A stretch of DNA of 47,942 bases. Source: Kiritimatiellia bacterium. Lineage in GTDB: Bacteria; Verrucomicrobiota; Kiritimatiellia; RFP12; UBA1067. The stretch is taken from contig JAFYDR010000125.1 of assembly GCA_017544725.1 (NCBI GenBank), positions 1 through 47,942 on the forward strand. The letters run 5' to 3'. The position numbers were made by a program, and so were the translations under genes. This document shows, one piece after another, positions 1,435-40,224 of the stretch (positions within the stretch are counted from its first letter, which is position 1; each line of letters begins with the position of its first letter). The notes below the pieces were generated by a model. It was not told the origin of the DNA and searched no databases. It saw only the letters and a list, made by a program, of their open reading frames with translations.

Positions 1435-1965
1435 TCAAAGTGCATCCGCATTTCTCTCCGCTCCGCTTTTTTTAGAATGAAAACAACTTAAACAACTTGT
1501 TTCTAGTGCGCGGGCTAACTCGCCCGCGCCCAATAGCCGATCCTCAAATGGTTTCCCGTCTGAAGTCAAAATCTCTTGGCTTTCTACATCGTAGAAGTAT
1601 CGCTCGATTTCGGCGAACTTCGGAAAGAAATTCACGATGATTCCAAACGGTATTTTGAGTAACCTCATGTAATTAAATAGTTGAGCACGGTGCGTGGATG
1701 TCAAGGATGATACAGCCTTGCATTCCACGATGACATCACCTTTACACAGAAAGTCGATACGATATTCGGCATTCATCGGACGCCCTTTATAAAACGGGTG
1801 GAATACTTTCTCACGTTCAAATAGGATATCTCTATCAGAAAGTTCCATCGCCAGTACCTCCTGATAACAGTATTCATTGATGCCGGCACCGAGTTCGCTA
1901 TGGACAGAATGCAGTGCGCCCACGATATCATAAACGTGATTCTTTAGTTCAACTGTATCTCTCAT
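1435..1965 (-). CDS. GxxExxY protein (PD-(D/E)XK-like fold)
   Basis: This 176-residue protein carries the name-giving motif G28-x2-E31-x2-Y34 of the GxxExxY family, whose role is not established. Residues D71 (RIDFL) and E81-C-K83 have the spacing of a PD-(D/E)XK nuclease site and are intact. Family members are usually about 125-140 residues; here the last ~33 residues, from about residue 144, are encoded by the end of the surrounding inverted-repeat element and so are probably an accidental read-through tail. The ATG at 1965 follows AAAGGATAT; an in-frame start at 1986 has no such site. An extended -10 (TGGTATAAT) at 1994-2002 lies inside the element, so the gene seems to bring its own promoter. 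Confidence 0.85.
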   Translation of the reverse strand: MRDTVELKNHVYDIVGALHSVHSELGAGINEYCYQEVLAMELSDRDILFEREKVFHPFYKGRPMNAEYRIDFLCKGDVIVECKAVSSLTSTHRAQLFNYMRLLKIPFGIIVNFFPKFAEIERYFYDVESQEILTSDGKPFEDRLLGAGELARALETSCLSCFHSKKSGAERNADAL

Positions 1966-2104
1966 CACATATCCTTTTGGAAACAACGGAGTAATTATAC
2001 CAAACGATTGTCGACGGTAAAAGGCAAAAGAAAAAACGGATCGCGGACCGGTTGGTCCGCGAACCTTTTCAAGTTGTTTTTACCAGTTGTTCCTGTTGTT
2101 TTCC
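1479..2104. mobile_element. Inverted-repeat element carrying the GxxExxY gene (copy A)
   Basis: The GxxExxY gene lies between two arms that also occur, without the gene, at 5627-5831 and 39933-40159. The left arm has AAACAACTTG followed by the 8-bp hairpin GCGCGGGC-n6-GCCCGCGC (1507-1528). The right arm has the hairpin GCGGACC-GGTT-GGTCCGC (about 2043-2060) followed by AAGTTGTTTTTACCAGTTGT and a GTTGTTTTCC end. The outer ends are inverted repeats of about 34 bp when the better-preserved left ends of the other copies are used; in this copy the left end has lost about 12 bases. No target-site duplication is clear. Confidence 0.75.
1994..2022 (-). promoter_or_regulatory. Promoter of the GxxExxY gene
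   Basis: Read on the minus strand there is an extended -10, TGG-TATAAT, at 2002-1994, with a weak -35 (TTTTAC, 2022-2017) 17 bp upstream. It lies about 30 bases before the start codon and inside the mobile element. Confidence 0.55.
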
Positions 2105-5626: not shown

Positions 5627-5831
5627 GGAAACAACATGAACAACCTGAATACAACAACTGAAAGATGTATGCGGACCAACCGGTCCGCGCATTGGTTTCC
5701 CTTTGCCTTTACCATGACAATCATTTGAGGGAATTGTCCCATTACCTTTATGGGATAGGCTATTGGGGCGCGGGCGAGTTGGCCCGCGCTCAAAAGACAA
5801 GTTGTTTTTGTAAGTTGTTTCTGTTGTTTTC
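5627..5831. mobile_element. Gene-less derivative of the GxxExxY element (copy B)
   Basis: This 205-bp element is inverted relative to copy A. It has both outer inverted repeats, the GGTCCGC-type hairpin (about 5670-5687) and the GCGCGGGC-type hairpin (about 5767-5790), but only about 75 bases between them. On one side the match with copy A runs past the hairpin into the 3' end of the GxxExxY coding sequence (CCCAATAGCC, then ATCC) and then breaks; on the other side GGTAAAGGCAAA matches the region upstream of the copy A gene. This is what an internal deletion of the gene would leave. Short open frames here are not genes. Confidence 0.72.
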
Positions 5832-5927
5832 TTTTTCAAACAATAGCTGAACTGGTGGCGAAAAACGCAGATGCGCCTCAGCTTAACACGCTTATCCAGC
5901 TTAACACGCTTATCCCGCTTACCCGAC
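5832..5927. repeat. Spacer repeats downstream of copy B
   Basis: The stretch holds the word CGCAGATGCGCC, which also occurs near 22058 and 40195, and then two direct copies of CAGCTTAACACGCTTATCC-like sequence. The latter word recurs near 17570, 19570, 20100 and 37340, in either orientation. Confidence 0.6.
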
Positions 5928-21704: not shown

Positions 21705-22090
21705 TCTTCGATTCCTTCCCATGTGTGTGCCAGATCGCCGTGCACGGCTTCCAGCTGCGCAAGAGAACGTTATTTTACTCACCTCCCCTCAAGTCTGTCC
21801 ATCCCAAAGTTTGCGGGGGCTTCGCGCCAGTGTATCTGCGCGGGAATATTCATGTGGAATAACTTTCGACAGCTAGCGATGACATGCCGACAAACGACAC
21901 GCGACACGCCGCTACTGCCTACTCCCTACTGCCTATTGCCTTCTTTTCAGCCTTTCAGCTTCCCCGCTTCTCAGCTGGCGGCATAGCCGCCTGTCACTCG
22001 TCACTACTTCATGCAGCGAAGTTGTTGTTTTCATTTTCAAAAGACGATGGTGAAATACGCAGATGCGCCCCTACTCGCGAAACAAACCGG
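21705..22090. repeat. Spacer mosaic of dispersed repeats
   Basis: No gene was seen. The first 60 bases are leader of the aminopeptidase gene. Then come CGGGAATATTCATGTGGAAT (21839-21858), CGACACGCGACACGCC, CTACTGCCTACTCCCTACTG, a CAGCCTTTCAGCTTCCCCG word, a GTCACTCGTCACTACTT word and, at about 22018-22070, a fragment of the outer end of the GxxExxY element with its CGCAGATGCGCCC flank. Confidence 0.65.
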
Positions 22091-39855: not shown

Positions 39856-39932
39856 CGTCACTTCGGGGCAAAGCCCACTTAATTCGGTCGCATCTACGTT
39901 CCTCTCCACCAGTTCAGCAATCGTTTGAAACA

Positions 39933-40159
39933 GAAAACAACAGAAACAACTTATAAAAACAACTTGTCTTTAGAGCGCGGGCCAACTCGCCCGCGCCCCA
40001 ACTATATTCAGGGGCAATTACCTCTTGTAAAACTACCGAATCTCGTCACTCGTTACCGCTTCGCGTAGCGAAGTTTTGGCAAAGGAGAGACGATACGCGG
40101 ACCGGTTGGTCCGCGCACCTCTTTCAGTTGTTGTCTTCAGGTTGTTCCTGTTGTTTCCC
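39933..40159. mobile_element. Gene-less derivative of the GxxExxY element (copy C)
   Basis: A 227-bp copy in the same orientation as copy A. The left end GAAAACAACAGAAACAACTT is an inverted repeat of the right end (GTTGTCTTCAGGTTGTTCCT, then GTTGTTTCCC). Both internal hairpins are present (GCGCGGGC-type at about 39976-39997 and GGACCGGTTGGTCC at about 40100-40113). The ~100-bp centre holds a fragment of another spacer repeat (CTCGTCACTCG and the ACTTCGCTACGCGAAG-type hairpin) instead of a gene. Outside the left end CCACCAGTTCAGC is shared with copy B. Confidence 0.75.
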
Positions 40160-40224
40160 AAATCCTCTCGCGCGCATGGAATGTGTGAATTATGCAGATG
40201 CGCCCCCTTAATCTTTTTAGCTTC
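40160..40224. repeat. Spacer words between copy C and the hemA fusion
   Basis: The stretch has GCAGATGCGCCCC (shared with 5866 and 22059) and a CTTCTCAGCTTTTCAGCCTC-type word that continues into the 3' end of the next coding sequence. Confidence 0.55.

Follow-up and report, generated by a model that had tools for sequence, protein, structure and literature searches.

GxxExxY genes are flanked in many phyla by inverted arms made of short tandem words, and the word in the arms follows the subfamily of the protein encoded between them. These observations were made starting from the window, that is, the whole 47,942-nucleotide stretch of Kiritimatiellia DNA analysed here. We consider it rather probable that two layers are nested in the window's family, a general cassette of nuclease gene and arms and, around it, an outer layer of ISKra4 type. 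More tentatively, as a possibility that falls somewhat short of probable, we propose that GxxExxY cassettes are undescribed, near-ubiquitous single-gene elements whose nuclease recognises its own arms and spreads them as hairpin mini-elements, with a word specificity that changes with the subfamily and with S23/IVS cassettes as a sister class. The association of GxxExxY genes with such arms is undescribed in the open-access literature that was searched and may have been described elsewhere.

The GxxExxY gene of the window and its arms

In profile searches the product of the window gene (Table 1) exceeded the curated cut-offs of both TIGR04256 (119.3 bits, cut-off 35) and PF13366, PDDEXK_3 (110.3 bits, cut-off 22), and the family motif and the PD-(D/E)XK residues are present, so that the protein is a member of the GxxExxY family as the earlier note had proposed. 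The conserved core of the gene spans 1591-1944. An AlphaFold2 model of the protein reached a pLDDT of 93, and its best match among solved structures was Cas4 SSO0001 (Foldseek E 8e-4; VIA-align Z 9.5 with 94 residues at rmsd 2.2); lambda exonuclease and Hjc resolvases ranked lower. In an alignment of 27 diverse members of the family (alignment A1), the residues E, D, E-x-K, Q and Y were invariant and no set of cysteines was conserved. Cas4 proper has four cysteines that carry an iron-sulphur cluster and lies near CRISPR adaptation genes. By its predicted fold and its invariant catalytic residues, the GxxExxY protein models as a Cas4-like PD-(D/E)XK nuclease, and the invariance of D, E-x-K, Q and Y indicates that catalysis by these proteins is probably under selection. 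To our knowledge, the family is still without an assigned role. It is encoded in 164 of 289 sampled genomes of the window's phylum and is present in many other phyla. With the queries used, matches were found in 8 of 72,556 plasmid records and in none of the phage records, a scarcity that is expected of a chromosomal, RAYT-like resident and not of a travelling transposon.

Table 1. Positions of the GxxExxY gene and of the three copies of its element in the window
Feature	Position	Strand	Description or basis
GxxExxY gene	1435-1986, first ATG 1965	-	TIGR04256 and PF13366 profile matches
Copy A, decayed outer TIR (GTGCATCCGCATTTCTCTCC...)	1440..1461	+	assigned by eye against the TIR consensus; weak
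Copy A, left inner arm	1479..1545	+	AACAAC words at 1482 and 1491; hairpin 1508-1529
Copy A, right inner arm	1980..2104	+	hairpin 2043-2060; inverted AACAAC words at 2073, 2086 and 2095
Copy B, gene-less	5627..5878	-	two three-word arms; clear outer TIR 5860-5878, other end decayed
Copy C, gene-less	39886..40205	+	complete MITE of 320 bp; outer TIR and three-word arm at either end

The open reading frame of the window gene crosses the whole left arm, which encodes the C-terminal tail of the protein from 1530 on; that arm's hairpin and words together spell the tail LLGAGELARALETSCLSC... (GELARA...SC). An arm-spelled tail was also found in two relatives, at L084 (genome G019) and L095 (genome G004), and thus in three genera in all. 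As the tail is spelled by the hairpin and words of the arm in each of these loci, we conclude that gene and arm belong together.

The arms of the window gene had been reported to recur without the gene and in both orientations, with a hairpin inside either end. Both arms were indeed recovered gene-less at 5627-5831 (minus strand) and 39933-40159, and both hairpins could be placed (Table 1). Copies B and C have three AACAAC words in each arm, at offsets of 9 and then 13-14 that match on both sides, and copy C folds as a single long hairpin. In the gene-bearing copy A, two words are present on the left and three on the right, and the outer ends are decayed. A perfect outer TIR was additionally seen at 22052-22070 (minus strand), with a second TIR nowhere near it in the window.

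Sequence searches, from which all copy numbers of the window's own genome derive, gave 67 arm matches in this assembly (G000; 3.8 Mb, 366 contigs, 75% complete), and most copies are gene-less. Two further GxxExxY loci of this genome, L047 (G000:C167) and L048 (G000:C204), have words other than AACAAC (CTTCGCG-type, CGCGGAG-type); one of the two runs into a contig end and one is a remnant. Several of its MITEs, among them L009, L010, L022 and L033, carry a second left-arm module, AACTTCGCTGCGCGAAGTAGTGACGAGTGACGAATGACGAG, that resembles the 7-bp word arrays of the four-helix-bundle type described below, which points to mosaic elements like BIMEs.

Outer ends in common with an ISKra4-like insertion sequence

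The outer terminal inverted repeat, GGGCGCATCTGCGTWWTTCRCC, lies about 45-50 bp outside the inner arms. It has 119 forward and 122 reverse matches in the window's genome, 241 in total, and the reversed control gave 0. The repeats of about 34 bp that the earlier note took for the outer ends are the inner AACAAC arms, and that sequence was rejected as terminal repeat because the copies stay homologous up to GGGCGCATCTGCG. At 7 of about 30 TIR pairs of the genome, a target duplication of 9 bp was found in which no more than one position differs, and some of these duplications are exact (L021, TGCAAGGAC; L032).

Genome G004 is that of a relative from a different genus of the same family as the window's host and contains at least 16 near-identical insertions that end at contig breaks. 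While no G004 copy of the gene-bearing element is assembled end to end, several run visibly into the GxxExxY gene in the position and orientation seen in the window (L064, L067, L095). Exact 9-bp duplications pair left with right ends seven times, against an expectation of 0.001, which excludes chance. Deletion derivatives are also present: L061 has lost internal sequence cleanly, and L093 is a further case. The suggestion of a gene-bearing inverted-repeat element with gene-less relatives formed by internal deletion was therefore borne out, and the target duplications that it called for were detected.

The same genome harbors an 1804-bp insertion sequence (L129, 194-1997) with TIRs identical to those of the GxxExxY element and a 9-bp duplication of its own, GAGGGTGAA, of which the left copy lies in L129 and the right copy in L130. 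The best family for its transposase is ISKra4 (NF033572, 148.8 bits, about 98 bits ahead), and as this score lies below the cut-off of 205, the insertion sequence is at most a distant member of that family. A DUF6788 gene is located beside the transposase gene (L129, 264-596, minus strand). No ISKra4-like transposase was found in the incomplete assembly of the window's genome.

By their common TIRs and duplication length, the insertion sequence and the GxxExxY element stand in the relation that defines a MITE or mobile insertion cassette. Given that an insertion sequence with identical ends resides in a relative, movement of the element probably proceeds in trans and would not need the nuclease. 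Judged from these sequences, the GxxExxY element of the window's family is probably a non-autonomous passenger of an ISKra4-like insertion sequence. The proposal that the nuclease moves its own element is disfavoured by this finding, the insertion sequence being the likelier mover. For the outer layer we envisage that the AACAAC cassette, which is enclosed by ISKra4-type terminal repeats, would be spread in trans by the ISKra4-like transposase with formation of 9-bp target duplications, and that internal deletions would then have led to the gene-less copies B and C. The window copy on its own would be a variant of a mobile insertion cassette only.

It could be argued that nothing more than a plain ISKra4-type MITE family is present, with GxxExxY as passenger gene and the inner arms as meaningless filler. 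The identical outer TIRs, the 9-bp duplications, the complete insertion sequence in G004 and the prevalence of gene-less copies in the window's genome all speak for such an interpretation, and it fully explains the outer layer of the window's family. The likeness to ISKra4-family insertion sequences with their MITEs and mobile insertion cassettes extends to the non-autonomous copies, one type of which bears a gene other than a transposase. It does not explain the general layer: cassettes in many phyla carry three-word arms without an ISKra4-type TIR, the word tracks the protein as set out below, and the arm spells the gene tail in three genera. The three-word inner arms and the nuclease have no counterpart in the insertion sequence and are found without it in other lineages. 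We therefore regard the interpretation as quite unlikely and retain a general cassette inside an ISKra4-type outer layer.

Three-word arms and their match to the protein

For a quantitative assessment of the arms, the two 350-bp flanks of each gene were aligned to each other, the trailing flank being reverse-complemented, with a score of 32 as threshold and with mispaired flanks and other open reading frames of the same loci as controls. The median score for 88 GxxExxY genes, nearly all from the window's phylum, was 40.5, compared to 19 for each of the two controls. A score of at least 32 was reached by 78% of these genes, 3% of mispaired flanks and 0.5% of other open reading frames. In a sample of 80 named loci that covered many phyla and included Methanosarcinales archaea, 76 genes were usable and gave corresponding values of 68%, 11.7% and 0.5%. 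The higher value for mispaired flanks is due to the word CACAGAG, which is common to many of these loci. As alignment A1 is too diverse for a genome scan, this sample was collected with a second alignment (A2) and the single motif GPGLLE, and it consequently leans to the GPGLLE subfamily. Ordinary gene flanks or common low-complexity sequence were ruled out as the source of the arms by the low scores of both controls.

A heuristic word finder detected a tandem 7-mer common to the two arms in 137 of 163 cassettes and in 8% of a shuffled control. The words include CACAGAG, CACGGAG, CGCAGAG, CACGAAG, CGCAAAG, CGCCAAG, ACAGGAT, CACGGAA and CACGAAT and usually occur three times per arm. The median length from arm to arm is 465 bp, which leaves little room for anything besides the gene. 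In the 87 cassettes whose arms both contain three words, spacer length is equal between the arms in 92.5% of cases (39% expected by permutation) and spacer bases agree in 52% (33% expected); word identity between the arms is 94%, a value inflated by the fact that the word was partly picked for agreement, which does not affect the result for spacer length. The earlier note had made its case depend on the presence of the arms at GxxExxY genes elsewhere. The exact arms of the window are absent there and the three-word design is nearly always present, an outcome in favour of a broadened version of its proposal.

Word similarity tracks protein similarity (Mantel r 0.50, p 0.0002). ACAGGAT is the word of a VGEFVADI-type subfamily, CACGGAA or CACGAAT are those of an ICYDKII-type subfamily, and words ending in AG go with a DCGYRxD-type subfamily. 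The covariation holds under permutation inside single genomes (37 pairs, p 0.013), which argues that it reflects more than host ancestry, and it could come from joint inheritance alone. The spacing pattern did not track the protein significantly (p 0.07). The correspondence between word class and subfamily makes it most likely that the protein recognises the arms of its own gene. By anatomy and statistics, the inner layer is a gene for a Cas4-like nuclease between inverted arms about 465 bp apart, each arm usually consisting of three copies of a word of about 7 bp with spacers of 1-3 nt, and we suggest from the covariation that the nuclease would bind these arms as duplex DNA or as folded hairpin. 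Cutting at or near the folded arms may then cause arms and cassettes to be copied to new sites and to be lost again, and loss would leave gene-less hairpin pairs and solo arms behind.

Gene-less forms, related cassettes and known systems

A strict three-word CACAGAG arm was found in 31 of the 289 genomes, and the reversed control occurred in none. GxxExxY is encoded in 30 of these 31 genomes, as opposed to 164 of 289 overall (Fisher p 3e-7). Among the places listed, 14 convergent CACAGAG pairs are too short for a gene (72-228 bp) and four are gene-sized, all of the latter at GxxExxY loci; gene-less and gene-sized pairs have their orientation in common. In genomes G157 and G243 a sharply bounded arm of about 30 bp with constant spacers lies in many unrelated flanks, in some cases with an inverted partner. 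The only common insertion edge of the solo arms was a short T-T-R before ACC. In G243 (L426, L427, L430, L432), CACAGAG arms run directly into an array, ACAGAATTGACGGAATTAACAGAATT, of a different word class, an arrangement in which arms of different specificity are joined.

Arm sites are polymorphic between congeners, another point on which the initial proposal had been made to depend. One such site, in a genus of the window's class, is an intergenic region that we take from the encoded peptides to be gatA/gatB. It is filled with a full cassette in three congeners (G073, G329, G324), holds a decayed gene-less remnant with pieces of the gene in G316 (L362), and is without the cassette in about 20 others. 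The empty sites are too diverged for a target duplication to be read, and the ISKra4 layer was the only context in which duplications were detected. At empty gatA/gatB sites (for instance L349, L353 and L361) a different short array, TTACGAATTACGGATTACGAATC, is often present, as if the spot attracted word arrays. In the window the element is flanked by a nitroreductase gene and sua5, and congener G001 lacks it at this site.

Homing would offer another account of the gene-bearing copies: the nuclease would cut gene-less arm pairs, and repair would copy the gene-bearing cassette into them. This would agree with a Cas4-like nuclease with conserved active site, with its cognate words and with the common orientation of gene-less and gene-sized pairs. 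However, gene-less copies retain pieces of the gene (L362 of G316; L093 of G004), so that wherever a direction can be read it is that of deletion from gene-bearing copies. We consider homing very improbable, and loss from gene-bearing cassettes remains the preferred origin of the gene-less forms.

Similar arms also surround genes for four-helix-bundle proteins (TIGR02436). In a sample from 30 genomes of the phylum (L302-L331, for instance L311, G000:C213:4721), these genes have inverted arms of tandem words as well, with a period of mostly about 7 bp (AGTGGAT, GAATCGT), and 67% of them reached a score of at least 32 as opposed to 1.7% of mispaired flanks. Six such genes are present in the window's genome. 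The four-helix-bundle cassettes have similar arms without a nuclease, which counts against our explanation by two nested layers. In Coxiella, the intervening sequence (IVS) of the 23S rRNA gene encodes an S23 protein, has a 28-bp terminal stem that is cut by RNase III, and contains three tandem heptameric repeats ahead of the start codon (PMC4990558). This likeness ties the four-helix-bundle class to a known but unexplained element. GxxExxY elements resemble such intervening sequences in being small single-gene elements between inverted ends, and the three heptamers before the Coxiella reading frame have their equivalent around the TIGR02436 genes studied here. However, the proteins are unrelated, the word period is 8-10 for GxxExxY as opposed to mostly about 7 for the S23 type, and the window's element lies between protein genes and not in an rRNA gene, and is thus not an IVS.

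Alternatively, the cassettes might act at the RNA level: RNase III would excise the paired arms from the transcript, insertions would thereby be tolerated, another enzyme would move the element in trans, and the nuclease would be cargo or act elsewhere. Consistent with this, gene-less forms fold as long hairpins in which the spacers form small internal loops (z -7.4, -5.3), the loops are kept symmetric by equal spacer lengths, the Coxiella stem with its S23 gene and heptamers is a precedent, and the layout is common to the four-helix-bundle genes. On the other hand, conservation rests on the words and not on overall pairing, with spacers free to differ, and the match between word and nuclease subfamily is left unexplained. 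The G-U bias between the arms was not significant (45 vs 33) and position matching between them was weak (p 0.01); purely RNA-level selection on the arms is thus unsupported. We judge the RNA-level explanation unlikely and keep to recognition of the arms by the nuclease as the more tentative part of our proposal.

Among known systems, REP/RAYT/REPIN has a gene with inverted repeats on either side, repeats that coevolve with the protein, and inverted doublets that are non-autonomous (PMC2817692, PMC3116915). GxxExxY cassettes likewise consist of a single chromosomal enzyme gene between inverted repeats that covary with the enzyme, hairpin doublets and singlets are dispersed gene-less, and the presence of the enzyme goes with abundance of the repeats. 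The enzymes differ, a Cas4-like PD-(D/E)XK nuclease by prediction versus an HUH tyrosine transposase of the IS200/IS605 superfamily, and so do the repeats, three tandem words of about 7 bp versus a GC-rich palindrome headed by GTAG or GTGG. Coevolving, dispersed flanking repeats are thus present, whereas an HUH enzyme and a GT(A/G)G-headed repeat are not. With enzyme and repeats unrelated, the GxxExxY system would by analogy work like REP/RAYT without being a member. Rpn and GxxExxY proteins have the PD-(D/E)XK fold in common and belong to separate Pfam families; we know of no cognate inverted word arms of rpn genes. Rpn proteins (YhgA-like, PF04754) are reported to be a nuclease family that took its name from transposases and has a link to RecA-independent horizontal transfer (PMC5350276).

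The arms provide a testable substrate for the GxxExxY family, and the words would allow its specificity to be read as a code from the sequence. The general layer has its logic in common with REP/RAYT and neither the enzyme nor the repeat. The parallel four-helix-bundle cassettes link the arms to the long-unexplained intervening sequences of 23S rRNA. If the proposal is true, it would explain the origin of many anonymous repeats in environmental genomes, such as those of the CACAGAG, CGCCAAG and ACAGGAT types.
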